Shown: in pieces, positions 547 to 62,638 of the stretch | Numbering within the stretch: position 1 is the stretch's first letter | Layout: each line of letters starts with the position of its first letter | Origin: a virus | IMG/VR virus record: IMGVR_UViG_3300045825_000261 | Coordinates: 21,175 to 85,174 of that record | Length of the DNA stretch: 64,000 nt | Reading direction: 5' to 3' (one strand) | Position numbers and translations under genes: made by a program | Notes under the pieces: model-generated | The model's database searches: none | What the model saw: only the letters and a program-made list of their open reading frames with translations | What the model was told of the DNA's origin: nothing

Positions 547-564
547 TCAGTCATAAGTGACTTA
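547..564. promoter_or_regulatory. Operator palindrome, site 1
   Basis: Copy of the genome-wide palindrome: TCAGTCA-TAAG-TGACTTA. It lies immediately upstream of, and touching, the ribosome site of the 246-536 gene, so bound protein could block transcription or translation initiation there. Confidence 0.6.
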
Positions 565-774
565 TCAACCAAACTTATAAAAAATATGCTGCCCTATTAC
601 TGCAACCTTCTTCATTCCACGATCTTTAGTGACAACCGTACAGACTCGATCAGCATCGTGACCGGCACGATTCCAAGTAACCTGCGCAACGGCGTGCTGC
701 CCCGCAAGCGGTTGTTTGCGACTTTCGTGATAGATGTTGAGGCTCAGACAAACGAGCGCTGCTGCGAGAACCAT
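565..774 (-). pseudogene. Truncated SleB/CwlJ-type cell wall hydrolase
   Basis: The 69-residue product starts MVLAAALVCLSLNIYHESRK and continues GQHAVAQVTWNRAG, which matches the N-terminal signature of SleB/CwlJ cell wall hydrolases (an alpha-helical start, then N-x-Y-x-E-x-R and G-x-x-AVAxVxxNR). The frame ends after about 20 further unrelated residues, so most of the domain is missing. An AAAGGGA site precedes the ATG. It may be a decayed remnant or a short protein reusing the helical start. Intact family members hydrolyse peptidoglycan; this one probably cannot. Confidence 0.5.
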
Positions 775-820
775 AGCGTCCCTTTCAATTTGTTACTGCG
801 ATGTAAGTATGATAATCGAG

Positions 821-838
821 TAAGTCAGGAGTGACTAT
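821..838. promoter_or_regulatory. Operator palindrome, site 2
   Basis: TAAGTCA-GGAG-TGACTAT in the gap between the genes at 565-774 and 845-1207. On the minus strand a weak TATCAT box follows 8 bases after the palindrome. Confidence 0.65.
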
Positions 839-844
839 CTTATT

Positions 845-1207
845 TTAACGAATTTTTACCGTCTTTTCGATGTACTCAATGGTCGAGAATGGATTGACTC
901 TGAACTTTGCCAATGGCAAACCTCGCTGACGAGTCTGCTCATGACGAGCAAATGAGTACGGACTACTGAAGAAATCATCAATTAGGGCAATCCAAAATTT
1001 CTTTGAACTTCCCTTTCCTGTGACCACGCCGGCGGCAATTGCGCCGGCTGTCTTTGCCTTTTCGAGTACCGCAACGTCTAGCAGCCATGCGTTTGTCTTT
1101 CTACACACATCACGACTGCGCCTGTGAGCGAGATACACACCACTGCCGGCATCTAGGTAATACATGCCGGCGAATTCGCCATTAACCGTATGCGGTACTC
1201 GAATCAT
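845..1207 (-). CDS. Hypothetical protein, 120 aa
   Basis: Basic 120-residue protein (many R and K) with no recognised domain. Its ATG overlaps the stop of the preceding gene in a TAATG arrangement, so it is probably translationally coupled to the ASCH-like gene. Part of the recombination/early operon that starts further right. Confidence 0.6.
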   Translation of the reverse strand: MIRVPHTVNGEFAGMYYLDAGSGVYLAHRRSRDVCRKTNAWLLDVAVLEKAKTAGAIAAGVVTGKGSSKKFWIALIDDFFSSPYSFARHEQTRQRGLPLAKFRVNPFSTIEYIEKTVKIR

Positions 1208-1557
1208 TAAATTCTCCGTAGTGAAATTACCGTTGTTTTCTTTTCAACGTTTACAATGTGAGGCCCGTGAATTCGTAACAACACTTTAAAAAGTCTCTCG
1301 GCACTCTGCACACCTGAACCTTCCGCTATCTGGCTATGATTGCCTTCGGAGTGAAGCAGTAGCATTTCCCCAAGCTTACCGACATCAATAGCCTCAACGA
1401 CAGCTTTGCCAAATACCGACTTTTCCTTCTCATTCATAAGCAGGACTTCCTCACCGACCTTCAGCCTCGATGCGTAAAATCCGCCAATTCTAAATGTGTT
1501 GAATTGCTCTTCAACGCCCAATACAGGCGGTATAAACCCAATAACTCTTATTTCCAT
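1207..1557 (-). CDS. Possible ASCH/PUA-like domain protein
   Basis: About 116 residues from an ATG at 1557 preceded by GAGGG; an upstream GTG at 1584 is in frame but lacks a good ribosome site. The stretch FRIGGFYASRLKVGEEVLL followed by VFGKAVVEAI resembles the ASCH/PUA-like beta barrel, in which a G-x-x-a-x-x-lkxGdeV element is followed by a G-x-A-x-V strand. Such proteins bind RNA or modified nucleotides. The match is by eye only, and function remains open. It overlaps the next gene by one base. Confidence 0.4.
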   Translation of the reverse strand: MEIRVIGFIPPVLGVEEQFNTFRIGGFYASRLKVGEEVLLMNEKEKSVFGKAVVEAIDVGKLGEMLLLHSEGNHSQIAEGSGVQSAERLFKVLLRIHGPHIVNVEKKTTVISLRRI

Positions 1558-1606
1558 GACGCCCTCTATCAGTGAGTGAGACACCCAATGATAGAGGGGT
1601 GGTGGC

Positions 1607-4884: not shown

Positions 4885-4902
4885 TAGCTCACTACTGACT
4901 TA
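4885..4902. promoter_or_regulatory. Operator on the SSB promoter, site 3
   Basis: TAGCTCA-CTAC-TGACTTA. Read on the minus strand it is TAAGTCA-GTAG-TGAGC followed directly by TATAAT, a perfect -10 box for the SSB gene. Bound protein would cover the spacer and touch the -10. Confidence 0.75.
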
Positions 4903-4918: not shown

Positions 4919-5701
4919 TTACGCGGCTTCCCGTTTTGCCGACGACAGTGCGCGACTACGAAAATCGTCACGTTCACTTTGTTTTTCGAGAACGCGAGCG
5001 GCGCCCTTGTATTCATCACGCCGATCTGCACCCAACTGAATAATCATGTCGCGGCGATCCTTCAGGGCTTCGACGTTTTGCTTATTTATCGAGGCGATCG
5101 TGCCGGCTTCAATGACGGTATTCTTTGCCTTGAACCAGCGAGAGTCGAGCTTGACGGCGTTTTCAACCATCTTCTCAGTAACTTTCTCGCCTGAAGCCAC
5201 CAACTCCTTACGGTGGTGGTCGTACAGCGTTGCCTCTACAACCTCGAAGCGAGCCTTCAAGCGATCGTGCTGCGCCTCTGCACGGGCGGCTAATGTGCCG
5301 TAATAGGCACGCAGACCGCTTTGTTCGTACATACACGAATCCAGAGTTTCTTCAGTGACGCGAATGTCCTTGATGAACTTGGAAGAATCGACGTAATGTT
5401 GAAGACCGCTTGACGCTGTTTTTGGAACATCTTCATCAAGCTCGTCCGAAGCAGCAGTCTCTTCAACAACTTCCGCAACAGACTCTTTCACCTTAACCGG
5501 CGCTTCTTCGTCCACTAACTGCTCAGAAACACTCTCAACAGGCACTTCTTCGACCTTAACAGGCTCTTCGACCTCGACTACGGTCGCAGCAGGCGCTTTC
5601 GCAACAGCCTGGCTTTCGACAATCTTCGCGCTCTCCTCTTCGAGCTCCGCCATCAGCGATTCGATTTCGTCATCCGATACGTCAATTTCTTTTACTGCCA
5701 T
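4919..5701 (-). CDS. Recombination-mediator-like protein, unknown
   Basis: 260 residues: an acidic, valine/glutamate-rich and probably disordered N-terminal third (to about residue 95), then a helical, charged domain beginning around GLQHYVDSSKF with YEQSGLRAYYG and long amphipathic helices. Its place between the polymerase and SSB genes, and its helical character, recall UvsY-type mediators that load recombinase onto SSB-coated DNA. This is inference from context, as no diagnostic motif is visible. AAGGAG precedes the ATG. Confidence 0.5.
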   Translation of the reverse strand: MAVKEIDVSDDEIESLMAELEEESAKIVESQAVAKAPAATVVEVEEPVKVEEVPVESVSEQLVDEEAPVKVKESVAEVVEETAASDELDEDVPKTASSGLQHYVDSSKFIKDIRVTEETLDSCMYEQSGLRAYYGTLAARAEAQHDRLKARFEVVEATLYDHHRKELVASGEKVTEKMVENAVKLDSRWFKAKNTVIEAGTIASINKQNVEALKDRRDMIIQLGADRRDEYKGAARVLEKQSERDDFRSRALSSAKREAA

Positions 5702-5760: not shown

Positions 5761-5778
5761 TAAATCATTCCTGACTTA
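5761..5778. promoter_or_regulatory. Operator palindrome, site 4
   Basis: TAAATCA-TTCC-TGACTTA just downstream of the polymerase gene. An additional outer inverted repeat, AAGTCAGGA at 5750-5758 against TCCTGACTT at 5769-5777, overlaps it, so the region can also form a hairpin. Confidence 0.6.
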
Positions 5779-9268: not shown

Positions 9269-9907
9269 TTACGACCTCAATTCAGGAGCAGCAACGATAC
9301 GACCAGCGATTTCCTGCGCTATGCAAAAATCAAGCAGAATCGGTAAAGTGATAGATACATGAGAAGCTGCGGCGCTGTCGCCCATTTCGGTTTTGGTTAA
9401 AAATAACTCTTTCAATTCGCGTTTATCAAAGCCTCCGTCAATCAGACCGTCAATCGCTACAGACATAAAACGTGGCCGTGAATTCGCTAGAGCGTTGCGC
9501 CCCTCCTGAATACCTTCTTTTATCTTTTCAATCAGACCTTGATTACACAGATTGCGAGCCTGCTCTCGCGGCTTAATCTTCATCTTCGCAAGAATCAATT
9601 CATGCTCGACCGGAATCGAAAACTTCACAACCTCAACGCCAGTCACGCGCTCTACCGGCTGAGTAATCTTCGCCTCAACTTTTGAGGCGAGCTCCTCAGC
9701 CGTCATACGACGAGCCATTTTTCGCTTTGCGTCGTCATGCCGCTTCAGCAAGTCAGTCACATTAACAAGCCCTCTTATTGACTCAAGCGTCTTCAGAGAC
9801 TCGTCAGAGCACGCCTCAAAATGAGAGCATGTCTTGCAAATGTCAGAATCGTGCGAAAACACACTTGCTGCGCCATAACATCCCGGAACACCTTTGGCTT
9901 CACTCAC
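9269..9907 (-). CDS. Cysteine-cluster protein of unknown function
   Basis: 212 residues starting at GTG 9907, which overlaps the stop of the sigma-like gene (GTGA) after an AAGGGG site. The N-terminus has C10 and then CKTCSHFEAC at 24-33, a metal- or iron-sulfur-binding style cluster. The rest is charged and helical. Coupling to the sigma-like gene suggests a role in transcription, but nothing in the sequence proves it. Confidence 0.55.
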   Translation of the reverse strand: MSEAKGVPGCYGAASVFSHDSDICKTCSHFEACSDESLKTLESIRGLVNVTDLLKRHDDAKRKMARRMTAEELASKVEAKITQPVERVTGVEVVKFSIPVEHELILAKMKIKPREQARNLCNQGLIEKIKEGIQEGRNALANSRPRFMSVAIDGLIDGGFDKRELKELFLTKTEMGDSAAASHVSITLPILLDFCIAQEIAGRIVAAPELRS

Positions 9908-10596
9908 TTGATTCCCCTTATCGCAGATTTTTTTAACTCAAACCTTGCCTTACTTACCGACGCTTCGCTGACTCCAAGCAAAACAAGAAAATTACAAATA
10001 AAACTCATATCAATTGTCTGTCTTGCTCTTTTTTGCTGTCCGGCTTGTCGAGTCAACCCAACATGAGCAACGCAAGCCTCAAATTCGCGCTCAAGCTCTT
10101 TGGGCGGGTCAATTAGCCAACGCGCAATCAATGAAGCGAGAGGCGATAGGTTAGAAAGCATCCTACTCAACGACTGAGAAGTGGAAAGCTCACTCTCTGG
10201 CGTTTGACGAGAGCATGTTAAAATATCAAAGTCATCAATATCTGTGCCTGTTGCGCTACTATACCGATGTGCCATTTCTTCAACAGACCTGACTCCATTA
10301 TCGACTCGTTCCTCCTTTACCTTCTCGGCGATTTTGTTGATCTGGTTGTAGGCTGCGCGAGTGTAGTAACTTGAAAACTTATACCCACACTCTTCAGAAA
10401 ACCCATCAAACGCCTTTACAAAAACAACGCTTAACTCCTGCACAAGATCGTCATAGTCTACCGGCGCACCCATCGCAACAAGTCGCCCATAACCTTTTCT
10501 CGCCGCGTAATGCACGAGCCCCACATGAGTGGTGTAGTATTTGTTTAACTCATTGCGGTCCATGAGATTAACCAAATATTCTCTGAGCGAGGCCAT
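9904..10596 (-). CDS. Sigma-70 family-like factor
   Basis: About 230 residues from ATG 10596, which overlaps the end of the CobS-like gene; another ATG at 10563 is possible. The stretch YDDLVQELSVVFVKAFDGF followed by CGYKFSSYYTRAAYNQINK corresponds to sigma region 2 (core binding and -10 recognition). The C-terminal part may supply a region-4-like helix pair (SEASVSKARFEL). It could redirect host RNA polymerase to phage promoters. It is divergent, so the assignment rests on region 2. Confidence 0.7.
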   Translation of the reverse strand: MASLREYLVNLMDRNELNKYYTTHVGLVHYAARKGYGRLVAMGAPVDYDDLVQELSVVFVKAFDGFSEECGYKFSSYYTRAAYNQINKIAEKVKEERVDNGVRSVEEMAHRYSSATGTDIDDFDILTCSRQTPESELSTSQSLSRMLSNLSPLASLIARWLIDPPKELEREFEACVAHVGLTRQAGQQKRARQTIDMSFICNFLVLLGVSEASVSKARFELKKSAIRGIK

Positions 10597-11755
10597 CAAT
10601 TACTTCGCGATCCACGCGAGATAGCTTATTGATAAACGATAGCGTCAGACCTTGACGGAACGAGCCACGCTTAACACCGATCTTGGCCGCGTAAATCAAG
10701 GTGCGTGGCGAAATAACGTCACTGACCTTTGCGCCGTCATACGCATCACGAACAAGCCCTGCGAACTCAACCATCTTGTCAGCGTCCTCTTTAACCAGAC
10801 CAACGTGATTTTGAAGAATTTGCGACTCAGCCTTCTTGTTCATGTACTGCTTGTTCACAACCATGCCGAAGCGGTCGTAGTTGGCGCTGTTACCGATAAC
10901 CGTACCTTGATACAGACCAGTTTCGTCACCGGAGCCATTTGTGTTACCTGTAGCAACGAAGCGAAAGTTCGGGTGAGGCTTGATAATGCGCATCGTTACA
11001 GGTGCTTCCTTGATGACCAGCGGCTTACCTTCGAGCACGGCTTGATAGACCGAACTTACAGAAGGCAGCATGAAGTCATATTCATCAGCGCAGTACGTCC
11101 AGCCGTTGATCATCGCAAGAGGCAATTGACCGTATTCAAATACAGTGTGACCATCTTTCACCGTCCACTGACCGACAATGTGGCTCTCTTCAGTGTTCAC
11201 GGTATGCTGAACGCGAACGTATGGGCGACCAGTGCGTGCCGCTACCTGCTCATGCAGTTCTGATTTACCAGCGCCCTTGTGACCCCAGACGTAGCAAGGA
11301 ATATTCAGTTCTTGCGCCAAGATCACGTTTTTCAATTCGTCAATATCGAAGACGTAATTGTCAGATATGTCCGGTACAAAATCCTGACACGAGCTATTGA
11401 CCAGAACGCCGATGGGTATCGCTTCGCCTTTTGCAGACATTGCAGACTTAACCTTGCCAAGACCAAAAACTTCGTGAAATGCCTTTTTAATGATCGAGTC
11501 TTTGGGCGCGACAGTTGCGGAGGTCGCCATTTCAAATTTCAAACCAGAGGCTTCAGCCGGTGCTGCCGCTGCGGCACGCTTTTCTGCACGCTTTTCTGCA
11601 AGCTTTGTCTGAGCAAATTCAGACATGAGCGGAGCTTCTGGGAATTTAGCCACGTACTGCTCGGTGGTCATTTCGGGGTGATCCTTCTTCAAGTGCAGTT
11701 GAACTGAGTGAATTTGAGCTCCGCAAATTGCGCAAGTGATTTTGTCTGTTGACAT
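10568..11755 (-). CDS. CobS/MoxR-like AAA+ ATPase
   Basis: 395 residues. A C2H2-type zinc finger (C8, C11, H21, H26) is followed by an Ala/Lys/Glu linker and an AAA+ domain with Walker A GHKGAGKS at 158-165, Walker B CADEYD at 222-227 and a sensor region VATGNTNGSGD. This matches the CobS/MoxR group, which works with VWA-domain partners to remodel or insert metals into protein complexes. The VWA partner is the gene directly upstream in transcription (11868-13814). AGGAG precedes the ATG. No cobalamin genes are present, so the substrate is probably a protein of phage or host. Confidence 0.85.
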   Translation of the reverse strand: MSTDKITCAICGAQIHSVQLHLKKDHPEMTTEQYVAKFPEAPLMSEFAQTKLAEKRAEKRAAAAAPAEASGLKFEMATSATVAPKDSIIKKAFHEVFGLGKVKSAMSAKGEAIPIGVLVNSSCQDFVPDISDNYVFDIDELKNVILAQELNIPCYVWGHKGAGKSELHEQVAARTGRPYVRVQHTVNTEESHIVGQWTVKDGHTVFEYGQLPLAMINGWTYCADEYDFMLPSVSSVYQAVLEGKPLVIKEAPVTMRIIKPHPNFRFVATGNTNGSGDETGLYQGTVIGNSANYDRFGMVVNKQYMNKKAESQILQNHVGLVKEDADKMVEFAGLVRDAYDGAKVSDVISPRTLIYAAKIGVKRGSFRQGLTLSFINKLSRVDREVIDGLAQRIFG

Positions 11756-11832: not shown

Positions 11833-11850
11833 CAAGTCACTTGTGACTTA
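11833..11850. promoter_or_regulatory. Operator palindrome with outer arms, site 5
   Basis: CAAGTCA-CTTG-TGACTTA between the VWA and CobS-like genes. It is nested in a second perfect inverted repeat, GTCAGGATA at 11822-11830 and TATCCTGAC at 11849-11857. Confidence 0.7.
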
Positions 11851-13826: not shown

Positions 13827-13844
13827 TAAGTCACTATTGACTGA
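13827..13844. promoter_or_regulatory. Operator palindrome, site 6
   Basis: TAAGTCA-CTAT-TGACTGA, abutting the ribosome site of the VWA gene. Occupancy could interfere with RNA polymerase or with early elongation. Confidence 0.65.
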
Positions 13845-14211: not shown

Positions 14212-14229
14212 ATAGTCATTTTTTACTTA
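14212..14229. promoter_or_regulatory. Operator on leftward promoter, site 7
   Basis: ATAGTCA-TTTT-TTACTTA. On the minus strand it reads TAAGTAA-AAAA-TGAC then TATAAT (14209-14214); TTGAAA lies 19 bases further upstream as a possible -35. It drives the gene at 13948-14133. Confidence 0.65.
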
Positions 14230-14449: not shown

Positions 14450-14896
14450 ATGATGGTTGAAAAAACTGTTAATACGAAGCACTCTAATAACATTACAAAG
14501 AAAACAAGATCGGTAGCAGAGTATATCTCTTGGCAAATTGCGCTTTGCGGAAAGCCGCAGTTGGACATAGCGGTAGAAGCCGGTTTCGAGAAACCGAACA
14601 TCGTAACGATGATCAAGCAGGGCAAGACAAAACTACCACTGGGCAAAATAGGCAAGTTCGCAAAGGCCATCGAGGTTGATCCAATGCACTTGCTCAAACT
14701 TTGCATGTCGGAATACTGGCCCGACACATGGAATGAAATAGAAAGCATCTCAAAACAACCCGTACTTACCAACAACGAAATTAGCATTATTATGGAGATT
14801 CGCGAGTGTGGGGCGGGCAATCCCAAGATCAGCACAGATGAAGACAGAGAGCGTTTGGCTGTATTCGTAAGTACACTCAAAACAGACAATCAATAA
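14450..14896 (+). CDS. Cro/C1-type HTH repressor candidate
   Basis: 148 residues. After a basic N-terminus, the segment KPQLDIAVEAGFEKPNIVTM then GKTKLPLGKIGKFAKAIEV fits the XRE helix-turn-helix family (Q-x-x-A-x-x-xG, N-x-V/I-S/T, nGK-x-x-P, L-x-x-FAkalev). There is no LexA-type peptidase domain, so induction would need another route. AGGAG precedes the ATG. It is one of two plus-strand genes in the window, opposite to all lytic operons. I infer that it is the lysogeny regulator and the best candidate to bind the dispersed palindromes. Confidence 0.7.
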   Translation: MMVEKTVNTKHSNNITKKTRSVAEYISWQIALCGKPQLDIAVEAGFEKPNIVTMIKQGKTKLPLGKIGKFAKAIEVDPMHLLKLCMSEYWPDTWNEIESISKQPVLTNNEISIIMEIRECGAGNPKISTDEDRERLAVFVSTLKTDNQ

Positions 14897-14946: not shown

Positions 14947-14976
14947 TTGCAAAAGTAAGTCATAACTGACTATAAT
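14947..14976 (+). promoter_or_regulatory. Excisionase promoter with operator in spacer, site 8
   Basis: TTGCAA (14947-14952), 18-base spacer, TATAAT (14971-14976). The spacer contains TAAGTCA-TAAC-TGACTAT (14956-14973). This is the cleanest view of how the palindrome sits inside a promoter, and it would let the repressor keep excisionase off in the lysogen. Confidence 0.8.
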
Positions 14977-15006: not shown

Positions 15007-15297
15007 ATGAAAACATTTGACGTTGCCGCATGTGCGGACTTCCTTAAAATTCACCGAACCACAGTCCTAAAGCTTGTGGCGTCTGGCGACCTTCCAGGCG
15101 CAAAGATAGGCCGCGCCTGGGTCTTTCTTGAAACAGACTTAATCGACTATATACGCAACGCCATTCGCTCACAGAGTCACGTCACAACTAAGCCACAAGT
15201 GACTGAAGCTATGCGAGCAGAGCCAATAGGTCGTAAGCGAAAGGTTGCGCCAGACCTCTCTGCATACACGTCACCACATCTTTCGCGCCAAATCTGA
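15007..15297 (+). CDS. Excisionase-like HTH protein
   Basis: 96 residues. VAACADFLKIHRTTVLKLVA then GDLPGAKIGRAWVF is the winged helix-turn-helix of the excisionase/MerR-like HTH_17 family, followed by a basic tail. It likely directs the integrase to excise the prophage. It converges on, and overlaps by 27 bases, the 3' end of the integrase gene. It has its own repressible promoter. Confidence 0.78.
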   Translation: MKTFDVAACADFLKIHRTTVLKLVASGDLPGAKIGRAWVFLETDLIDYIRNAIRSQSHVTTKPQVTEAMRAEPIGRKRKVAPDLSAYTSPHLSRQI

Positions 15298-16446
15298 CGC
15301 CCTAAGATTTGCATAGCGACCCAACATTTGAGTGCTGCTGTGTCCGGTGATCTTCATAATCTCAAAGTCCGACATTTCCGTTCTCTCGAAAAGTCTACTG
15401 GTCGCCTCGTGGCGCATGTCGTGAAAGTTTAAATCAACACAGCCGGCCGCCTCAAAGATTCTGGTGAACTGGTGCGACAGTGCCGATGTAACTTTCTCAT
15501 ATCGCTCCTTTGGCAAAAGCATAGCGATCTTCTTCTCAGCGAGCCATGGGAATAGATACCCACCGTCAAACGTAAACAACTCCATTCCTCTTCGCTTTGC
15601 AAGAACGTGCTCCGTATAGGTAATCAGGCTCGCGATGGCAACAGACGACAGCGGCACCTGTCTGCTTTTGCCATTTTTGGTTTTTTTAAGAAAGATTGTC
15701 GCATTCTCAATGTCCACCATGTCCATTTCAATTGAATAGATTTCACTGAGCCGCATTGCTGATTCAACAGCAAGATCAAACACGCACTCGATAGCCGCTT
15801 GGTAATCAAGCTTAAACGCCCTTTCTCGGCCCTCTGGCTTAACCTTGTTCATCACCGCCCTAATTCGCTCTTCCTCACCAGACTCAAGGCGTCTGATGCG
15901 CCCTGCGCTGTGCTTAACCTCCAACGTGTCATCTTTAGCAATGACGGCCGCATCTGCTGGCGTATAGGCGGAATACCCCTTCGGCAACAGTCTGAGAGGG
16001 TTTGGAGCAAGCTCCGCAACACCCTGCGTTATTGCCCAGTCAAAACACCGAGCAAGCGCACCGACATTATGTCTGATTGTGGATGGGGACAAATTAGCCA
16101 CGCGCTTCATCGAGCTTATCCATGACTCGATCCACTTGTAGTTGACGAGTCTTATACTTACACCGCCAACCTTATTAAGCAAACCACTCAGGTAATCAGT
16201 ATCGCAGGACGTGACGTGACGCTCGCGCATATATTCACGAATAAGATCGCCAATTGAAGAATACTTCTTCACATCGTCAAGAAGCTCTGGTGGCACGATA
16301 CCGGCATCGAGCAACGACTCGACATGTTTGCCGTAAGCGATCGCAGCCTCTTCCGTATCGAATGTCCAATACCACGGCTTTTCTCTTACTGCTTTTCTTT
16401 TCACGGTCAACTCAAAGCGACCGCCTCTTGGCTTAATTGACGCCAT
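15271..16446 (-). CDS. int: Tyrosine integrase
   Basis: 391 residues. N-terminal arm-binding region, core-binding helices around 65-150, then the catalytic domain with R232 (ESAMRLSEI), a lysine hairpin (KKTKNGKSRQVPLS near 254-267), H342-x-x-R345 (FHDMRHEATS), H369 (TGHSS) and the nucleophile Y378 (GRYANL). All active-site residues are present, so it should be functional. GGGAG precedes the ATG. The candidate attP lies directly upstream, as is usual. Confidence 0.93.
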   Translation of the reverse strand: MASIKPRGGRFELTVKRKAVREKPWYWTFDTEEAAIAYGKHVESLLDAGIVPPELLDDVKKYSSIGDLIREYMRERHVTSCDTDYLSGLLNKVGGVSIRLVNYKWIESWISSMKRVANLSPSTIRHNVGALARCFDWAITQGVAELAPNPLRLLPKGYSAYTPADAAVIAKDDTLEVKHSAGRIRRLESGEEERIRAVMNKVKPEGRERAFKLDYQAAIECVFDLAVESAMRLSEIYSIEMDMVDIENATIFLKKTKNGKSRQVPLSSVAIASLITYTEHVLAKRRGMELFTFDGGYLFPWLAEKKIAMLLPKERYEKVTSALSHQFTRIFEAAGCVDLNFHDMRHEATSRLFERTEMSDFEIMKITGHSSTQMLGRYANLRASDLARKMW

Positions 16447-16731: not shown

Positions 16732-16805
16732 TGGAGGTGCGTCCCAGAGTCGAACTGGGCTAACGTGATTTGCAATCACGGGCATAACCGATTTGCTAAC
16801 GCACC
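16732..16805 (-). tRNA. tRNA-Cys(GCA), 74 nt with encoded CCA
   Basis: Minus strand: acceptor GGTGCGT/ACGCACC, D arm with GGTTA, anticodon stem CGTGA/TCACG with loop TTGCAAA (anticodon GCA), T arm CCCAG-TTCGACT-CTGGG, discriminator T and CCA. All stems pair. It resembles E. coli tRNA-Cys in length and loops but differs in the stems. It sits between the attP region and the gene at 16831. Confidence 0.93.
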
Positions 16806-18730: not shown

Positions 18731-18748
18731 TAAGTCACGAGTGACTTT
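18731..18748. promoter_or_regulatory. Operator palindrome, site 9
   Basis: TAAGTCA-CGAG-TGACTTT, 27 bases upstream of the ATG of the virion-like gene. Confidence 0.7.
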
Positions 18749-21864: not shown

Positions 21865-21882
21865 ATAGTCATTTGTGACTTA
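21865..21882. promoter_or_regulatory. Operator on promoter, site 10
   Basis: ATAGTCA-TTTG-TGACTTA; on the minus strand TAAGTCA-CAAA-TGAC then TATAAT (21862-21867), facing the WGR-like gene. Outer arms AGCTGGA (21853-21859) and TCCAGCT (21884-21890) flank it. Confidence 0.75.
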
Positions 21883-23170: not shown

Positions 23171-23188
23171 TCACTCAATTTTGACTTA
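23171..23188. promoter_or_regulatory. Operator palindrome, site 11
   Basis: TCACTCA-ATTT-TGACTTA (weaker left half), touching the ribosome site region of the small gene before primase. Confidence 0.5.
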
Positions 23189-23204: not shown

Positions 23205-23222
23205 TTGATCAGGAGTGACTTA
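23205..23222. promoter_or_regulatory. Operator palindrome with hairpin, site 12
   Basis: TTGATCA-GGAG-TGACTTA, weak left half, 34 bases from site 11. A short inverted repeat, TCAGGAG (23209-23215) and CTCCTGA (23224-23230), encloses its right half. Confidence 0.5.
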
Positions 23223-25082: not shown

Positions 25083-25100
25083 ATAGTCACTACTGACTTA
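25083..25100. promoter_or_regulatory. Operator on promoter, site 13
   Basis: ATAGTCA-CTAC-TGACTTA; on the minus strand TAAGTCA-GTAG-TGAC then TATAAT (25080-25085), driving the Hfq-like and helicase genes. Confidence 0.78.
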
Positions 25101-26764: not shown

Positions 26765-26782
26765 TAGCTCAGTCGTGACTTA
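26765..26782. promoter_or_regulatory. Operator on phoH promoter, site 14
   Basis: TAGCTCA-GTCG-TGACTTA; minus strand TTGTGA, 17 bases, TATTCT with the palindrome as spacer. It forms one arm of a larger hairpin (26743-26787; 17-bp arms, one mismatch). Confidence 0.7.
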
Positions 26783-27162: not shown

Positions 27163-27180
27163 TATATCAGTTATGACTTA
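27163..27180. promoter_or_regulatory. Operator on promoter, site 15
   Basis: TATATCA-GTTA-TGACTTA. On the minus strand TGGACA, 16 bases, TATACT, with the palindrome filling the spacer. Confidence 0.7.
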
Positions 27181-29166: not shown

Positions 29167-29184
29167 TTCCTCACTCGTGACTTA
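29167..29184. promoter_or_regulatory. Operator palindrome, site 16
   Basis: TTCCTCA-CTCG-TGACTTA between endolysin stop and the 3TM protein start. Its left half contains the AGGA ribosome site (minus strand). Confidence 0.6.
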
Positions 29185-32099: not shown

Positions 32100-32452
32100 T
32101 ATTGAGTAACGCCCTGAGACAAAGTAATCTTCCCTTGAAGCAGCCGTTGCCCAGTGCCATCTGGAGCAATCATCAGAAAGTCGTAAAACGCAGAGGTGAA
32201 GCTCATTGCAGCGGTTGCCGTTGACGAGATAATGATGTCGATCGTGCCATTTATGCCGCCAAGAACAATTCCGCCATTCGCTGTAGTTAAGTCAGCAATG
32301 ACTGATGCGCCAGCGCCAATAGCAGAGCGAATCTGCATTCTTGCCGTATATCCGGTTAGGTTGATTGGTTTTTTCATGCGATCGCGCCACACCAAGCGCT
32401 GCTTGAATGTGGCATTTTGCTCAACAATAAAGTTAGAAACGGCTGCGACCAT
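32099..32452 (-). CDS. Small fibre-adaptor-like protein
   Basis: 117 residues: an N-terminal FIVEQNATFKQRLVWRD, then TGYTARMQIRSA, later DIIISSTATAAMSF and FYDFLMIAPDGT. This pattern is common in small beta-sandwich proteins encoded next to phage fibres, perhaps adaptors. An intragenic palindrome like the operator lies at 32288-32305. Confidence 0.5.
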   Translation of the reverse strand: MVAAVSNFIVEQNATFKQRLVWRDRMKKPINLTGYTARMQIRSAIGAGASVIADLTTANGGIVLGGINGTIDIIISSTATAAMSFTSAFYDFLMIAPDGTGQRLLQGKITLSQGVTQ

Positions 32453-32502: not shown

Positions 32503-32520
32503 CAAGTCAGTCGTGACTTA
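32503..32520. promoter_or_regulatory. Operator palindrome, site 17
   Basis: CAAGTCA-GTCG-TGACTTA between the toroid-like gene and the fibre-adaptor gene. TAAGAT lies further downstream on the minus strand as a possible -10. Confidence 0.65.
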
Positions 32521-39265: not shown

Positions 39266-39283
39266 TATGTCATTTATGACTTA
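39266..39283. promoter_or_regulatory. Operator palindrome, site 18
   Basis: TATGTCA-TTTA-TGACTTA in front of the fibre genes; minus strand TAAGTCA-TAAA-TGACATATTT gives a weak -10. Confidence 0.62.
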
Positions 39284-46231: not shown

Positions 46232-46241
46232 GTCTAATAAT

Positions 46242-46259
46242 ACCTCACCTGTGACTTAC
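46242..46259. promoter_or_regulatory. Operator on promoter, site 19
   Basis: TACCTCA-CCTG-TGACTTA; on the minus strand TTTACA, 18 bases, TATTAT with the palindrome as spacer. It lies between tape measure and tail tip genes and can start a tip-only transcript. Confidence 0.72.
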
Positions 46260-51956: not shown

Positions 51957-52603
51957 CTACACTGTCATTGCCTTTAGCTCTGCGATACCAGCACTATCCT
52001 TTTCCGCCATCGCCTCACGCAGAGGGTCGTCCATCAATGTCACCACCGTTCCGACCTCAAGAACCAATTTCTCATGGTGACCCACCGCCATTTCCCCACT
52101 CTGGCTACACATCGTCACTTCCAAAGCTCTCATGTCATGCTGTGCGTTTATTCTGTCAATTTGAGCATTCATGAACCAGAACATCTTAATTGGCAACGCA
52201 AGCATCTCTTCGTAACTGAGTCCGTAAAAACGCATATTTCGACAAAACAGAAACCCAAAATCGAGCTCCTGTATGTCAGGGGTCTTTAGTTTCCCGCTTC
52301 GTCCTTTGTGGTCTCAATACCATCAACATCGTCGCCGCGCACGAACGCTACAATTGCTTGCAGTGTTTCCAGCGACAGTCCGCCAAGGCCAGCGCGAGTC
52401 GCGGTAGGAATGCTGCGTAAAATCATTTCTGTCGTAGCTTCAACCTGAACGGCAAGCGAGGTCTCGTTAGCGATGCGCTCCGCTGCGCGTGTTGTTTCGA
52501 TAAAGTTATCTACCGTCATTTCCTGAACAACATGCTCAACGCCAGCCAATATCAGCTTGCGCACTTCTTTTTTGCCAACCTTGTCTAAGTTTAATACTTT
52601 CAT
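51957..52603 (-). CDS. Tail assembly chaperone, frameshifted long form (GT-like)
   Basis: Made by -1 slippage at GGGAAAC (52289-52295) near the end of the short form. Past the slip the frame reads KLKTPDIQELDFGFLFCRN and enters MRFYGLSYEEMLALPIKMFW, the usual T-part pattern. Read alone, the second part is an open frame from 51957 to 52235 without a good ribosome site, which supports expression by frameshift only. The T part is thought to bind the tape measure protein, encoded next. Confidence 0.82.
52286..52603 (-). CDS. Tail assembly chaperone, short form (G-like)
   Basis: 105 residues, mostly helical (MKVLNLDKVGKKEVRKLILA and onwards), ending KDEAGN. It lies between major tail protein and tape measure, as gpG does. 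It coats the tape measure during tail assembly and is not kept in the virion in relatives. Confidence 0.82.
   Translation of the reverse strand: MKVLNLDKVGKKEVRKLILAGVEHVVQEMTVDNFIETTRAAERIANETSLAVQVEATTEMILRSIPTATRAGLGGLSLETLQAIVAFVRGDDVDGIETTKDEAGN
52289..52295 (-). other. Programmed -1 frameshift site GGGAAAC
   Basis: In frame G-GGA-AAC followed at once by TAA. It has the same X-XXY-YYZ form as the lambda G-T site. A short stem (CCTG/CAGG) starts several bases downstream. Confidence 0.82.
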
Positions 52604-52663: not shown

Positions 52664-52681
52664 TAAATCACCGCTGACTTA
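52664..52681. promoter_or_regulatory. Operator palindrome, site 20
   Basis: TAAATCA-CCGC-TGACTTA, between the major tail protein stop and its terminator; minus strand has TTATGT after the palindrome as a weak -10. Confidence 0.6.
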
Positions 52682-52686: not shown

Positions 52687-53532
52687 TTACAAAGCGCCGA
52701 TATTGCCAATAGCAAACAGACGACTTGTCGTTGGGTCTGGGAAACCTGCAAACTCAACGTTGAATACGCGCTCATCTTCCAGTTTGTATGCGTATGTAAG
52801 TGCGCCAGATGTTGCTGCCAAGAACACTATAAAGTCTTCGCTGAAGTCGGTGGCTGCGTTTGCGATCGGATGCAGAACCAGACGTTGAGCGATGTTCAGC
52901 AAACTTACACCAATGGCGGTAGGAACAATCACATTACTCACAACCGCATCAGTACCGCCTGCCAGTGTTGCGCCCAAAGTGAACGTTGCACCTACGCCTG
53001 TCTTGGTTACGGCAATCAAATTGCCGGCAACGCCAGTGTTGTCGGATGTCAATGTGAAGGTTGTAGCGGTTGCCGTTGCTGTTATCGCCAGCCCTGCGTA
53101 GTTTGAAACCTCTGTCGCCAAGTTTGCCAACGACGCTGCAAGCGTCAAGCCAATAGCGATGTCGAGCGGTGTTACTGCCACGACTTTCCATGTAAACACC
53201 ACCCCACCAATTATCAGCGTGTCATTTGCCGCAAACTGACCAGTGATCGCGCCGGACGTGATGGATGCCTTCACGGCGTCGGTTGTTAAAACTGCACCTG
53301 GCATAACTTGAACCAAGTTTTCCAAAGTTGTTTCAGCCATAGGCACTTTTACATGCACTTCGCGACCCATGATGTATTCGTTGATTGGGGTCTTGCCGAA
53401 CTGATCGACATTTACCTTATGTGTGTCTGTTTTTACGGAAACCTCAACGCCGCCCTTGGTGTAGCCAAGATCGTAACCGCCGAAGGATACCTTACAAACG
53501 CCAAGCTTGACGTTCTTAGTATTTGAAGCCAT
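52687..53532 (-). CDS. Major tail tube protein
   Basis: 281 residues from ATG 53532 (AGGAG 7 bases upstream). The tube domain includes GGYDLGYTKGGVEVSVKTDT and INEYIMGREVHVKVPMAETT. A beta-rich insert (NDTLIIGGVVFTWK to about TLTSDNTGVAGNLIAV) sits in the middle and resembles a module in the virion-like protein at 17994-18704. Position before the chaperone and flanking by operator and terminator fit a highly expressed tail tube gene. Confidence 0.85.
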   Translation of the reverse strand: MASNTKNVKLGVCKVSFGGYDLGYTKGGVEVSVKTDTHKVNVDQFGKTPINEYIMGREVHVKVPMAETTLENLVQVMPGAVLTTDAVKASITSGAITGQFAANDTLIIGGVVFTWKVVAVTPLDIAIGLTLAASLANLATEVSNYAGLAITATATATTFTLTSDNTGVAGNLIAVTKTGVGATFTLGATLAGGTDAVVSNVIVPTAIGVSLLNIAQRLVLHPIANAATDFSEDFIVFLAATSGALTYAYKLEDERVFNVEFAGFPDPTTSRLFAIGNIGAL

Positions 53533-53559
53533 TGTAATACTCCTTTGCAAAGGGTTATA

Positions 53560-53577
53560 TAAGTCATTACTTACTTA
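53560..53577. promoter_or_regulatory. Operator on major tail promoter, site 21
   Basis: TAAGTCA-TTAC-TTACTTA; minus strand TAAGTAA-GTAA-TGAC then TTATAT as -10. Confidence 0.68.
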
Positions 53578-56410: not shown

Positions 56411-56839
56411 TTATTCAGCTCTTGCGGAGATTCCTGCCTTAACAATCAACTCGATCAGCCCGCCAATCGAGTTGCTTTTTAGCCCGAATGGTTCCGCAAT
56501 CGTGCGCAGACCAGCAATACCCTCCTCGTCTGCAATTGTGCCAAGTTGCTCTTCGGTGTATGTGGGAAGTTTTGTGGCATAGGCCTTTGCAACCTCTTCC
56601 TCTTCCTGCGCTTTCGCTTTTTGCTCGCTCTCAACCGGAGCTTGCATGTGTAAATTGTCCATATATACCTGCCCCACGTTAGCGGCGGTTCCATCTTCCC
56701 ACTCGCAATTCATTACCGCAGCCATGCGAGCCCCCACATTTGGCAGAACATCGGCAGTTGACAAGCCATCAACAAAGTCAGTAATACCCATTTGTCCTGT
56801 ATATTTTTCGTAATGCAGTGCTGTAAGTCGTAATTTCAT
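56411..56839 (-). CDS. Head protein with HeH/SAP-like C-terminus
   Basis: 142 residues. LHYEKYTGQMGITDFVDGLS leads, an E/K/A-rich linker follows, and TEEQLGTIADEEGIAGLRTI ends in a helix-extended-helix-like fold (GLKSNSIGGLIELIVK). Such small folds occur in phage head proteins downstream of the capsid gene. Function unknown. Confidence 0.5.
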   Translation of the reverse strand: MKLRLTALHYEKYTGQMGITDFVDGLSTADVLPNVGARMAAVMNCEWEDGTAANVGQVYMDNLHMQAPVESEQKAKAQEEEEVAKAYATKLPTYTEEQLGTIADEEGIAGLRTIAEPFGLKSNSIGGLIELIVKAGISARAE

Positions 56840-56890: not shown

Positions 56891-56908
56891 TAAGTCAGTT
56901 GTGACTTA
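56891..56908. promoter_or_regulatory. Operator palindrome, site 22
   Basis: TAAGTCA-GTTG-TGACTTA, a perfect symmetrical copy directly next to the capsid gene terminator. Confidence 0.75.
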
Positions 56909-56919: not shown

Positions 56920-57849
56920 TTAGATGTTAGTGAGACCTTTAATTTGAGCGATCGAACGAGTCGATTTAAGAGCCATGCCGGTGTACCACTTCAGGCGGAT
57001 ACGTGTTGCATCTTTGTTTTGAACAGTGCCGATGTTTTCAACTACGATACCAGCGTTGTCACCGCCATATAAACCATGCAAGCCATCCAACTCGTTCAGA
57101 CGCAGAGCGTATATGGAGCAAGTGGCGGCGTTTGTTCCGGCAACTTCATTACCTGCCAAGAACTCATTCATGATGACTGGGATACCGTTATGGGTCAGCA
57201 TTGGGCGACCGAAGTTTTCCAATTGCTGCATAACTGCATCAGTGCCGTATGTTGCACGCAACAGTGAGCGGAATGCACGCATTGTACCCCGGCGCATAAC
57301 GATAGCATCCGCACCGTTTGGAACCATGTCGCACAGTTGATCCATCATGCTCAGCGTCAGAGCTCCGCCGTTTGCGCCTGCGGTGTCAACTTGTTGACCG
57401 CCAGCAGTTGCAGCGTAAGTCTGTGCGTTTGCAGCCAGCGTTGGCAGACCGTCAAAACCGTTACCGCCAGCAGCTACACCAGTTGCCAGTTGTTGATGGA
57501 ATTTCAAAGCCAAACCCTTTGCCTTTTTAGCAATTTGGATTGCCATTTGGTCATTGGTGTCGCTTTGAGTTGCTTGCAAGAACTTGTCCACATCAACGTC
57601 GCCAGCGAGAATTTTCAAAGTAGTGACAACTTCGTTAAATGTGGAAGCGCTTTCGTTAATTGGGTCATTCGGATTCAAAAAGTCCGCGCTCGCCAGTGTG
57701 TTTTCTTGGTTGTAGACGTAAGCCTTGCCGTTCACGCCAACGAAAGGCAGAACAGAAAACAAATCGTCACGATAGATGATTTCCTCGATAACGCCGGAAA
57801 CCAGTTGGTTGTTACTCAAGTGTGCAGCTTGTGCAGACAATAATGGCAT
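56920..57849 (-). CDS. Major capsid protein (HK97 fold)
   Basis: 309 residues. IIYRDDLFSVLPFVGVNGKA, TFNEVVTTLKILAGDVDVDK, MRRGTMRAFRSLLRATYGT and IPVIMNEFLAGNEV follow the HK97-type major capsid pattern (N-arm, E-loop, P-domain helix, A-domain). The scaffold gene precedes it. Two operators lie in front and a terminator behind, giving the capsid its own transcription unit. Confidence 0.88.
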   Translation of the reverse strand: MPLLSAQAAHLSNNQLVSGVIEEIIYRDDLFSVLPFVGVNGKAYVYNQENTLASADFLNPNDPINESASTFNEVVTTLKILAGDVDVDKFLQATQSDTNDQMAIQIAKKAKGLALKFHQQLATGVAAGGNGFDGLPTLAANAQTYAATAGGQQVDTAGANGGALTLSMMDQLCDMVPNGADAIVMRRGTMRAFRSLLRATYGTDAVMQQLENFGRPMLTHNGIPVIMNEFLAGNEVAGTNAATCSIYALRLNELDGLHGLYGGDNAGIVVENIGTVQNKDATRIRLKWYTGMALKSTRSIAQIKGLTNI

Positions 57850-57901: not shown

Positions 57902-57919
57902 CTAGTCACCGATGACTTG
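57902..57919. promoter_or_regulatory. Operator palindrome, site 23
   Basis: CTAGTCA-CCGA-TGACTTG, 47 bases from site 24; the two together form a tandem pair upstream of the capsid gene. Confidence 0.65.
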
Positions 57920-57948: not shown

Positions 57949-57966
57949 CAAGTCACGGGTGACTTA
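57949..57966. promoter_or_regulatory. Operator on capsid promoter, site 24
   Basis: CAAGTCA-CGGG-TGACTTA; minus strand TAAGTCA-CCCG-TGACTTGATAAT gives a -10 box for the capsid gene. Confidence 0.75.
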
Positions 57967-58925: not shown

Positions 58926-60581
58926 TTACTTCGTTTTGTCCGTCACCTGCCCCTGCCTGCTTTCGCTTGCTGGCTTTGCCTGTGCCGTCTTCTTTGCTGC
59001 ACCGCCCTTGATAGAGATTGAGTCAGACTCCTTCCCGTTCGTTGCGGCCATTTGAGTTGCCAACTCGATTGGGTCAGCAGGCCAATCCTTAATGCCGTCC
59101 TCGATATTCTTACGGAGCTCTTTGGTCAGTTGAGGGAATAGCTTGTCAACCAGCATTTTCATTTGCTCTTGACGAATCTCATCAGGTGCGTCCACCAACA
59201 TCAGTTTCGATGCAATGTCGAACTCGTCATACAGTCCACGTGTGTCGAAGTTGTCGGGGTATGTAACGAGCCGATCGCTCTCGTCCAACGACTGACCATT
59301 CCACAACGCTACAAGCTCAATGATTCGGTTTTCAATTACCTCAAGACTGTCTGCCTTGGCCGCCAACAGAGCATTCACTCGCTCAAAGTCATAAGCCTTA
59401 GCAACGCCGCTTGAGTTGTCTATTCCAACCGCATTATCTTGCTTTGTGCGCTCACCAGCCAAACCAACCGTGTGGTAAATCTCCGCAATAATCTTGTTGA
59501 CCACTTCGAGAATCAAAGTCGCCTGACGAGGGTCTGGGGATAGAAAGAATGGCTGTGAGCCACCTTCGCCGTCGTATAGGAACACTCGCTTAGTTCCCAT
59601 TTCTACAAGCTTGGTGTAATTGTCCTCCCCTGGTAGCACGTTTTGCGCCGGCATAGCCAATTGAGAATATGTTTGATCCTGAATTATTGCATCTAGGTTC
59701 GAGAGGTAGTTGGCAATGGCGCGATCAAGATACGCAATATCGTCAATCATCGCCTGAGCTTCATATTCCTCGTCGGAAATAATATGGTCCGCTATAATCA
59801 CAGGAACCGCGCCGAGCTCATGTTCAGCCTCACCCTCAAGAATAACGGTAACTTTGCGCCCTTGTTTCTCTTCGCGGTAAAGCTTCCAGTCAGTCTTTGT
59901 CCACAACCGATAGCGGTAATCCTCATCGCCTGATGAAGTGAATGGGTCAGCGTCGTCTCGAACGCATTCTCTAATTAGAACCCATTGCAGTTCTCCGTTA
60001 TCGTCATAACTGTAGTCTAGCAAGTGCTCAGGCGTAACAATGTAAGCGTAAGCTCTTGCGCCGATACGCTTCTCGTCCGCCTTTGAAATAACTTTATCTG
60101 TCAATGCGGTCATATCCACCACTACCGCCACACGACCGTAGATTGATGTCTTCTTACTAATTTGTCGAGCCAAGTCATTCACTGACAAGCCGTTCTTGGT
60201 AGACTTTTTCCAGAAAGCCTTGACGTGATCTGGTGCGTCATCGCTGCGCGTGATGTTTTGCTTGAACAGATACTTGTTGATTAAGTCCACAACCTCTCGT
60301 GTGTGGTTGAATCGGTAGCAGCGCTCAATTCGATCGCCATGCTCCTGATTGCCTTCCTTGATGTAGCGAAAGATGTTGCTCTTAAACCACTCGCGCCCAC
60401 CTTCATAAGTGTCCTCAAGAAATTCCCAATGATTCTCGTTTTCTTCGTACTCAGGGTGACGACGAGCAATCAGGGTCTTTAGCCTCTTCTGCTCATCTGT
60501 AATGACCCCAGTTGACGTGGAGTCGATTCCCTTTGGGTCGATGTTGGCAGAAGTGCCTTGTTTTGGAGTTTTCGTTTTCAT
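58926..60581 (-). CDS. Portal protein
   Basis: 551 residues. ARRHPEYEENENHWEFLEDT, YRFNHTREVVDLINKYLFKQ, QDQTYSQLAMPAQNVLPGED and SGVAKAYDFERVNALLAAKA follow the SPP1-type portal (stem, wing, clip). It forms the dodecameric DNA gate at a capsid vertex. Follows terminase as usual. Confidence 0.88.
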   Translation of the reverse strand: MKTKTPKQGTSANIDPKGIDSTSTGVITDEQKRLKTLIARRHPEYEENENHWEFLEDTYEGGREWFKSNIFRYIKEGNQEHGDRIERCYRFNHTREVVDLINKYLFKQNITRSDDAPDHVKAFWKKSTKNGLSVNDLARQISKKTSIYGRVAVVVDMTALTDKVISKADEKRIGARAYAYIVTPEHLLDYSYDDNGELQWVLIRECVRDDADPFTSSGDEDYRYRLWTKTDWKLYREEKQGRKVTVILEGEAEHELGAVPVIIADHIISDEEYEAQAMIDDIAYLDRAIANYLSNLDAIIQDQTYSQLAMPAQNVLPGEDNYTKLVEMGTKRVFLYDGEGGSQPFFLSPDPRQATLILEVVNKIIAEIYHTVGLAGERTKQDNAVGIDNSSGVAKAYDFERVNALLAAKADSLEVIENRIIELVALWNGQSLDESDRLVTYPDNFDTRGLYDEFDIASKLMLVDAPDEIRQEQMKMLVDKLFPQLTKELRKNIEDGIKDWPADPIELATQMAATNGKESDSISIKGGAAKKTAQAKPASESRQGQVTDKTK

Positions 60582-60593
60582 AATTGGCGAGTA

Positions 60594-60611
60594 TAAGTCA
60601 GTCGTGACTTA
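60594..60611. promoter_or_regulatory. Operator on portal promoter, site 25
   Basis: TAAGTCA-GTCG-TGACTTA, perfectly symmetrical; minus strand TTGCAT, 17 bases, TATACT with the palindrome in the spacer. It is among the clearest promoter-operator overlaps. Confidence 0.82.
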
Positions 60612-60619
60612 TATGCAAG

Positions 60620-61864
60620 CTACAAGGAAATACCACCCACGTCGATCTTTCTGACTGGGTATTCAAGTTCTATACAGTAGCCTCCGGCATCTGCCGAATG
60701 CTCGACGCCCGCCGCTTTGTCAACATCGCGAGTTCCCGGCTTGTAAATCGTCTGCTCAAATGCGTTGATTAGGTGCTTGCATTTCGCGTCTATGCGCAAT
60801 CTAACAGAGCCATTCGCTGCGCGTAGCATTCGGTTCACGCTGTTAACGCGATCAGCGATAAAGGGGTGCTTTTTGCGATACTTAATGCGCTTCAATCCAC
60901 TCTCGCGAAGAATGTCCAAGTCAGTCTCGCCACGGGCGTGTTGACGCTGACCGCCTGCGGGGTCGGGGTACATGACGATCTGTTTCTGGTGACGCCAGTA
61001 CCGTTTGTCAATCTCGGCACATACCTCTTCGGTATTTGAGCCAAACAAAACTATCTCATCCACCGCCCACAGTTCGCCATTTGCCTGCGGCTGAAAGATA
61101 ACCGTGCTCATCGGGTCGATGTTGAAGTCCATGCCGATCCAGATTGGTAGAGCGGGATTGAACGCATATTTACCCACATGCTCTTTGCGGTCGAACGGGT
61201 AATACACTCGCCCGCTCATTGTCTCGAAGGATGCTTCAAACTCTTGCTTGAAGCTCTTCTCGTCCATATCTTGACGAGCCGCTTCAATTTCTGATGCCGG
61301 AATATAGGGAGACGTAATGGTTGGGAACTGCCAACTTTCCCACTGAAGCGCTTTGATCTTCTTTTTATTCTGCCCCTGCTTGTATAGCGTATAGAGGTAG
61401 TTGTACGCCTTTGGCGTACCAATGAAGATTGCGTGTCCGCCGGTGTCCGCAAGCGTTGGGCGCAATACTTGCGTCCAAGTCTCCTCGCTCATATCCTGAA
61501 ACTCGTCGAGAACCAGAAAGTGAATACCCACACCGCGCAGAGAGTCGGCCTTATCAGCGCCCTTTAACTCGATCCGCGTATTGTTGATCAGAGTGACTGA
61601 CAGCGTTGTCTCGTTTATCTTTTTGATCCACGCTTTCGGAATCGCGTCCATGAGGTCAAGCCACATAATCTGCTTCGCCATGCGGTAGGTTGGCGCAACA
61701 TACCAAATCTTTCTCTTTGGAATTTGCGCCATCTTAATAATCAGAACTCGCGAAAGTGCGGTCTTGCCCCACCGTCGGCCGGCAACAACAACGCGAAAAC
61801 GAGCCTTCGACTGAAAGACTCGCATTTGCGCGGGGTGAAGATTTAAGTGCGCCGACTGTGCCAT
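60620..61864 (-). CDS. terL: Terminase large subunit
   Basis: 414 residues. ATPase: VVVAGRRWGKTALSR (Walker A near 29-35) and FLVLDEFQDM (Walker B). Nuclease: IWIGMDFNIDPMSTV with the first aspartate, and AGVEHSADAGGYCIELE near the end. It powers DNA packaging and cuts the concatemer. ATG overlaps the small-subunit stop. Confidence 0.95.
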   Translation of the reverse strand: MAQSAHLNLHPAQMRVFQSKARFRVVVAGRRWGKTALSRVLIIKMAQIPKRKIWYVAPTYRMAKQIMWLDLMDAIPKAWIKKINETTLSVTLINNTRIELKGADKADSLRGVGIHFLVLDEFQDMSEETWTQVLRPTLADTGGHAIFIGTPKAYNYLYTLYKQGQNKKKIKALQWESWQFPTITSPYIPASEIEAARQDMDEKSFKQEFEASFETMSGRVYYPFDRKEHVGKYAFNPALPIWIGMDFNIDPMSTVIFQPQANGELWAVDEIVLFGSNTEEVCAEIDKRYWRHQKQIVMYPDPAGGQRQHARGETDLDILRESGLKRIKYRKKHPFIADRVNSVNRMLRAANGSVRLRIDAKCKHLINAFEQTIYKPGTRDVDKAAGVEHSADAGGYCIELEYPVRKIDVGGISL

Positions 61865-62526
61865 TACTCGTCCACAACGCCGTCATCTTCCACTTCATCT
61901 TCCGCATCATCTTCGCCAACATCATTGTCTCCGTCAGAGGATGGCAGTTCGTCAAATGCGGTATGGTCACGAGAGCGAAGCTGCTCCACTTGATCCGCAG
62001 TCAGTTCTGACACGATCAAGTCTGGCAAGCCTTCGTCTTCCGAAACGTCTTCTTTATCAAGACCGAGCAGCGACCACTTCTCCTCGCGAACCTTCTTGAT
62101 GTTGTTAATTGCTGTCTCAAGCGCTTTGAGGTTTGGAAGCGATGCTGCAAATGGCACACCGCTTGTTTTAGCGTTGACAATCTCTTGCCAAGTGAGCTTG
62201 CCCAGACCGGACACCATTTTGTAGTGCTCTTCTTTTGTTTCGCGTATTCGCGCTACGAGAATGGCTGTATCTTCGACGTGCGCTTTCGCAATCTCTTCTG
62301 CAACCTTCTTACGGGTTTCGCTCGCCTTGCTGCCGCGCTTTACTTCATACTCAAACATGTGGCGCTGAATTGTTCGCGTTGATATGCCGTACTTTTCAGC
62401 AAGCGTTTCCAAAGTCATATCTCCGGACGCCCAAATAGCCTCGCACTCAGCCCAACGCTTCTTGTTCATGACGCGCTTGATCTTTGCCTTTACCGCCGCT
62501 TTTGCAATTTCTTTTTCTTCAGTCAT
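61864..62526 (-). CDS. terS: Terminase small subunit
   Basis: 220 residues. An N-terminal helix-turn-helix (TLETLAEKYGISTRTIQRHM) for pac/cos recognition, central helices for oligomer formation, and a very acidic C-terminus (DGDNDVGEDDAEDEVEDDG). Preceded within 12 bases by the T run of a strong terminator, so expression must depend on read-through. Confidence 0.82.
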   Translation of the reverse strand: MTEEKEIAKAAVKAKIKRVMNKKRWAECEAIWASGDMTLETLAEKYGISTRTIQRHMFEYEVKRGSKASETRKKVAEEIAKAHVEDTAILVARIRETKEEHYKMVSGLGKLTWQEIVNAKTSGVPFAASLPNLKALETAINNIKKVREEKWSLLGLDKEDVSEDEGLPDLIVSELTADQVEQLRSRDHTAFDELPSSDGDNDVGEDDAEDEVEDDGVVDE

Positions 62527-62537
62527 TCAAGTCTCAC

Positions 62538-62566
62538 AAAAAAAAAGGGCGCAGGAGGTTGCGCCC
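62538..62566 (-). terminator. Strong intrinsic terminator before terS
   Basis: TGGGCGCA region: GGGCGCA and TGCGCCC pair around a 6-base loop, followed on the minus strand by nine T. It is the best terminator in the window and lies between operator/promoter site 26 and the terS ATG. Confidence 0.9.
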
Positions 62567-62620
62567 AGTTGGTAGTAGAAACCCTACGCCGCGCACCATA
62601 CCACTTGTTCCGTAAAATAT

Positions 62621-62638
62621 CAAGTCAGTCGTGACTTA
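62621..62638. promoter_or_regulatory. Operator on promoter, site 26
   Basis: CAAGTCA-GTCG-TGACTTA; minus strand TAAGTCA-CGAC-TGACTTGATATT gives a -10-like box pointing at the terminase genes, ahead of the terminator. Confidence 0.72.

Follow-up and report, generated by a model that had tools for sequence, protein, structure and literature searches.

In phage P1, one master repressor, C1, represses the lytic genes through 22 dispersed operators (PMC8546580). The cluster A mycobacteriophages, to which L5 belongs, carry tens of repressor sites per genome, most of them oriented the same way relative to transcription and located in promoters and short gaps, and the motif diverges with the repressor (PMC6550527, PMC9283540). 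In SPbeta, furthermore, the master repressor MrpR acts on SPBRE repeats in many intergenic promoters, which were found in silico years before the protein was (PMC10516654). Here we describe an 18-bp palindrome, TAAGTCA-N4-TGACTTA, recurring in a 64,000-nucleotide stretch of viral DNA (hereafter, the window; bases 21175–85174 of the 85,174-base record IMGVR_UViG_3300045825_000261). The copies are very probably operators of one lambda-like dimeric master (immunity) repressor, namely the XRE-type protein encoded at 14450–14896.

As in the systems above, one motif occupies many intergenic promoter regions of a single temperate phage: of the 43 sites found in the whole record, 38 lie at least partly outside called genes, and an integrase is present. 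Like P1, the phage would have one master repressor with operators spread over its genome, but P1 has an asymmetric operator of 17 bp (ATTGCTCTAATAAATTT), whereas the site here is an 18-bp dyad in about 43 copies. The number of sites, their placement in promoters and short gaps, their preferred orientation and the divergence of motif with repressor are shared with L5; the L5 repressor is, however, a monomer with two DNA-binding domains that reads an asymmetric 13-mer, whereas the dyad described here is near-symmetric and the protein is predicted to have one helix-turn-helix (HTH) domain followed by C-terminal helices. Dyads close to start codons and lacking a −10 hexamer would be compatible with an elongation stop of the L5 type. 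SPbeta also has repeats in many intergenic promoters and a single master repressor, as proposed here, while MrpR has a tyrosine-recombinase fold and about 10 sites by chromatin affinity purification sequencing (ChAP-seq), in contrast to an XRE HTH protein and about 43 predicted sites.

Cyrano, an SSU5-like phage-plasmid of Escherichia coli LF82, carries the dyads and a homologous protein, CYRAN_45 (68 bits against the window protein), encoded on the opposite strand in the same order, CobT-repressor-integrase; its arms read TAAGTAA, whereas those of the window read TAAGTCA. A term search of the Cyrano paper found no mention of an operator or palindrome (PMC9928086), and a literature search for the site sequence or for operators of SSU5-like phages returned no earlier report in the searchable papers, most subscription papers lying outside its scope. 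What sets the proposed system apart from the known ones is the symmetric 18-bp site, the XRE-type protein, the site number and the family-wide spread with shifting specificity.

Distribution of the palindrome

The initial annotation had listed 26 palindromes in the window, and all 26 were present, the one at 46242 moving to 46241 when the full 18-mer was aligned. Two of them (56891 and 60594) match the consensus perfectly, while 11, 9 and 4 have one, two and three mismatches, respectively. Scanning the window at up to three mismatches gave 34 matches, compared with a mean of 2.1 (sd 1.3, maximum 6) in dinucleotide shuffles; the eight additional dyads (13721, 15189, 17454, 17525, 32288, 39061, 41193 and 44639) are mostly in genes. 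The intergenic placement that had been claimed also held, since only one of the 26 listed dyads (46241) touches a called gene. Indeed, an iterated symmetric matrix recovered the 43 sites of the 85-kb record, of which 5 lie wholly within called genes where 37.2 would be expected (P=3e-28). Individual gene boundaries are approximate because the genes were called with a simple script, and IMG/VR records are possibly incomplete.

Dyads and the XRE gene in related phages

Judged from its genes, the window is part of a temperate SSU5/RHEph10-like siphophage: it encodes TerL, portal, scaffold, major head and tape-measure proteins, a PolIII-like polymerase, CobS/CobT, DnaB, ligase, RecA and gp32-like proteins, together with a tyrosine integrase and an Xis-like HTH gene. 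Its polymerase and portal are related to those of Rhizobium phage RHEph10, Pseudomonas phage nickie, Stenotrophomonas phage ANB28 and the SSU5 phage-plasmid group; in a megablast search, no phage matched the first 25 kb of the window. When 80 loci were fetched by their portal protein, the dyad was found at matching gaps in most of them. Whole dyad-bearing records mostly had 20–38 copies at two mismatches or fewer, with few in the reversed control; the exceptions were records G010 and G011, in which the reversed control itself was high. Relatives poor in TAAGTCA were found to have the same 7-4-7 dyad with different arms: ACAGTCA/ATAGTCA in G007, G016 and G004, TTAGTAA in G021, TAAGTAA in G012, SSU5, Cyrano and X66, and TCAATCA in G027, RHEph10 and N1_10. 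About 35–75 copies occur per relative genome, nearly all outside genes, with per-genome median distances to the start codon of mostly 40–70 bp, and the dyad-bearing relatives span 41–68% GC. A single sequence is common to all sites of one genome, and the sites shift together between lineages. No dyad was found in the whole genome of nickie or in the scanned parts of ANB28 and hairong.

In the first comparison, every one of 13 further complete genomes with dyads (RHEph10 and 12 G records) had an orthologue of the XRE protein, and nickie and ANB28 had none. A second profile search added G008, G010, G014, G023, N1_10, X66 and Cyrano to the positives and, over whole records, found no XRE protein in nickie, ANB28, hairong or SSU5; several partial records were negative as well, which is uninformative because they are partial. 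SSU5 is hence the sole XRE-less exception among the tested complete dyad-bearing records. It has kept its dyads with both the XRE protein and the integrase absent, and appears to be a repressor-less derivative that lost the two. We infer that nickie, hairong and ANB28 are virulent because they have no repressor and, in the case of nickie and ANB28, no integrase either. An integrase was found in 12 of 13 XRE-positive viral records. Of 14 genomes, 11 have the XRE gene on the strand opposite to most other genes, and all 14 have at least one dyad within about 240 bp upstream of it. In the window, nearly all genes are on the minus strand, while the XRE gene is on the plus strand adjoining the integrase. 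In the LF82 lysogen, CYRAN_45, annotated as a putative repressor, was expressed 10x above the prophage background, with most Cyrano prophage genes near background (PMC9928086).

Co-divergence of protein and site

In a comparison of 21 phages, operator-matrix distance correlated with the distance between XRE proteins (r=0.64), and the correlation remained upon controlling for portal, TerL or major capsid protein distance (partial r 0.49–0.52, p=0.0003); the portal distance, on the other hand, added nothing once the XRE distance was known (partial r −0.02). The recognition helix was informative beyond the rest of the XRE protein (partial r 0.32, p=0.001); that remainder was likewise informative given the helix (partial r 0.41), and the signal is therefore not confined to the recognition helix. 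These p values are from permutation tests, by which shared ancestry is only partly removed.

Site architecture and promoter overlap

The consensus has the palindromic 7-4-7 layout that had been described, but its full symmetry did not stand: when the sites were oriented by transcription, the upstream TAAGTCA and the TGA of the downstream arm hardly varied, in contrast to the outer bases of that downstream arm (315 vs 178 in a sign test over 15 genomes, P=7e-10). The varying four-base centre is itself biased, with C at its first and A at its third position. Among sites 25–80 bp before start codons, a −10 hexamer at the downstream arm was enriched over a mirror-image control (36–42% vs 17–24%), whereas the same comparison gave no enrichment for sites less than 25 bp from the start codon. 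This divides the sites into two classes: predicted operators over promoters, and start-proximal sites that are possibly roadblocks.

In a search for −35 elements, TTG was weakly enriched at −7 and −13, counted from the start of the dyad. Also, a T-rich block was seen at −19 to −12 upstream of the dyads (379 sites in ten mostly GC-rich genomes); the block and the TTG peaks resemble UP and −35 elements, but the −13 class has a spacing of 22 bp, which is unsuited to sigma70. A third TGAC half-site was noticed some 13–14 bp downstream of several dyads (5761 and 11833 in the window; L005:10725; L006:2087, record 13587), which suggests cooperative or extended operators.

The XRE protein

A lambda-repressor-type N-terminal HTH fold was found in the window protein by AlphaFold2, Foldseek and profile matches. 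The AlphaFold2 model has a helical HTH domain with a predicted local distance difference test (pLDDT) score above 90 for approximately residues 21–100; Foldseek matched it to P22 c2 (TMt 0.83) and 434 Cro (TMt 0.78), sequence profiles matched the immunity repressor 8bny (E=3e-6) and 434 Cro, and resemblance to Stl and DdrO was also seen in the Foldseek/profile searches. XRE homologues also occur on genome contigs L229–L241 (Roseovarius, Photobacterium and others), near which no AGTCA dyads were found; these are possibly further specificity classes. The viral loci L212, L214 and L216 have ACTAA dyads instead of AGTCA. A second, divergent homologue with an altered recognition helix (IP-PNLLSM) lies in G003 at 57402–57815 on the minus strand (L096:17402–17815) and could be a Cro-like partner or a decoy. 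An apparent in-frame stop in the X66 repressor was dismissed; it falls where the match ends at the C terminus and is probably just the ordinary end of the gene.

Discussion

We infer that the XRE protein dimerises and binds TAAGTCA-N4-TGACTTA, each half-site taking one HTH, so as to repress, roadblock and confer immunity. At many sites the downstream arm merges into the −10 hexamer (TGACTATAAT), and a bound repressor would therefore block RNA polymerase; doing so at nearly every lytic operon, it would keep the prophage silent. Where a site lacks a −10 and a start codon follows within about 25 bp, binding might instead stop elongation or serve local regulation. The repressor likely also regulates its own gene, because dyads lie upstream of that gene, which adjoins the integrase and runs counter to the lytic genes. 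As arms and repressor diverge together across relatives, separate immunity groups would arise. The proposal of one genome-wide regulator with this XRE protein as the candidate is thus supported by the co-occurrence of gene and sites, their co-divergence, the predicted HTH and the lysogen-expressed Cyrano orthologue annotated as a repressor. The likeness to stoperators, which had been drawn together with it, survives in part: roadblocks may be present at start-proximal sites that lack a −10, but many sites overlap a −10 and would be plain operators.

Several observations weigh against a master repressor. The −10 signal is found at about 40% of sites at best, and the start-proximal and in-gene sites need another role. 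For the XRE protein of the window itself, neither Pfam nor PHROG nor NCBIfam gave a model match, and no LexA-like cleavage domain (S24 self-cleavage domain of the CI/LexA type) was found in its 148 aa, the C terminus being all-helical. Outside the HTH, moreover, the AlphaFold2 model is weak (an uncertain helical tail; predicted template modelling score, pTM, 0.55), and the dimer interface is therefore a guess. There also appears to be no simple residue-base code between recognition helix and arms; that the P of KPN alone reads the C of AGTCA was rejected, since several AGTCA loci have A in its place and X66 has NPN with AGTAA arms.

The dyad might alternatively be an activator box, at which the XRE protein or a host factor beside the −10 turns lytic promoters on; a location around −27 to −9 would fit, as would the weakness or absence of a canonical −35 at most sites. 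SSU5 is, however, a propagated phage whose dyads persist without the XRE gene or the integrase, and the dyads are therefore not needed as activator sites. Nickie, ANB28 and hairong share related gene content in the absence of both dyads and XRE, while the XRE gene itself, oriented against the lytic genes, belongs to the lysogeny module and has a Cyrano orthologue that is expressed when most prophage genes are near background, all of which makes activation improbable. A promoter element for the phage sigma factor encoded in the window is slightly less probable still. In its favour, the same relatives conserve that protein, and the downstream arm bears a −10-like hexamer. Sigma-type elements are not true dyads, however; SSU5 carries dyads but gave no match to the sigma factor, and in ANB28, which has a weak sigma homologue (E=5e-5), no dyads were found. 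Indeed, in 14 genomes the XRE protein predicted the site given the sigma factor (partial r 0.62, p=0.001), whereas the sigma factor did not track the site independently given XRE (partial r 0.18, p=0.14). We regard as barely credible a hairpin in RNA or DNA with a 7-bp stem and a 4-nt loop, serving for example as an mRNA processing or translation signal. While an inverted repeat near start codons is what such a signal would look like, it is the sequence and not the pairing that is kept (60 pair cells broken against one compensatory double change in this genome). This lack of compensatory changes and the joint shift of all sites between lineages argue for a protein that recognises the sequence of the dyad.

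The master-repressor reading can be extended, tentatively and with somewhat more doubt than belief, to a whole SSU5/RHEph10 supergroup of temperate phages and phage-plasmids having one homologous XRE repressor, an initiation block at −10 dyads plus a start-proximal roadblock, and a repeatedly shifted code that sets immunity groups. A widespread and poorly understood group would thereby gain a concrete lysogeny switch, and shared immunity, temperate relatives and repressor-less derivatives such as SSU5 could be predicted from sequence. More than 20 naturally diverged repressor/operator pairs would also offer material on how specificity changes while about 40 sites per genome are kept in step.

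Features of the window

Table 1. Proposed repressor, integrase, and predicted operators and other dyads, in window coordinates
Feature	Position	Strand	Remark
XRE/lambda-repressor-like protein, 148 aa	14450..14896	+	proposed master repressor; transcribed against lytic genes
Tyrosine integrase	15271..16446	-	adjoining repressor (lysogeny module)
Predicted operator TAAGTAAAAAATGACTAT-aat	14212..14229	-	upstream of repressor gene; −10 TATAAT of leftward promoter in divergent gap
Predicted operator TAAGTCATAACTGACTAT-aat	14956..14973	+	before Xis-like HTH_17 gene 15007-15297
Dyad	15189..15206	+	near xis/int; 2 mismatches
Dyad	547..564	-	upstream of gene ending at 536
Dyad	821..838	.	+ strand arm better
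Predicted operator	4885..4902	-	TATAAT at downstream end
Predicted operator	5761..5778	-	upstream of gene 4919-5701 (after DNA polymerase gene); third half-site TGACTTG downstream
Predicted operator	11833..11850	-	upstream of CobS gene 10568-11755
Predicted operator	13827..13844	-	upstream of CobT gene 11868-13814
Predicted operator	18731..18748	-	upstream of 17994-18704
Predicted operator	21865..21882	-	TGACTAT-aat (TATAAT)
Start-proximal dyad	23171..23188	-	7 bp before called GTG start; no −10
Dyad	23205..23222	-	paired with 23171
Predicted operator	25083..25100	-	TGACTAT-aat (TATAAT)
Predicted operator	26765..26782	-	
Predicted operator	27163..27180	-	upstream of 26804-27133
Start-proximal dyad	29167..29184	-	upstream of 28552-29163
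Dyad	32288..32305	.	within gene; 1 mismatch
Predicted operator	32503..32520	-	upstream of 32099-32452
Predicted operator	39266..39283	-	upstream of 37927-39222
Start-proximal dyad	46241..46258	-	over end of tape-measure gene, before 45893-46231
Predicted operator	52664..52681	-	upstream of 52286-52603
Predicted operator	53560..53577	-	upstream of Ig-domain protein gene 52687-53550
Perfect dyad	56891..56908	-	upstream of 56411-56839
Weak dyad	57902..57919	-	upstream of major head gene 56920-57849
Dyad	57949..57966	-	upstream of major head gene 56920-57849
Perfect dyad	60594..60611	-	upstream of portal gene 58926-60581
Dyad	62621..62638	-	upstream of HTH protein 61864-62526 (probable TerS) and TerL

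The sigma factor considered above is a sigma-70 region-2 protein (Sigma70_r2) encoded at 9904–10599 on the minus strand, between CobS and the DNA polymerase; it is conserved through the supergroup (gp045 in RHEph10; weak in ANB28). SSU5 encodes an FljA-like repressor of phase-1 flagellin (SSU5_121, L164:46897–47343; PF03614), which was considered as a replacement dyad binder and left unsupported, as profile comparison with the XRE repressor showed no relation. Also, a tRNA-Cys gene at 16732–16805 on the minus strand adjoins the integrase and is a candidate attachment site.

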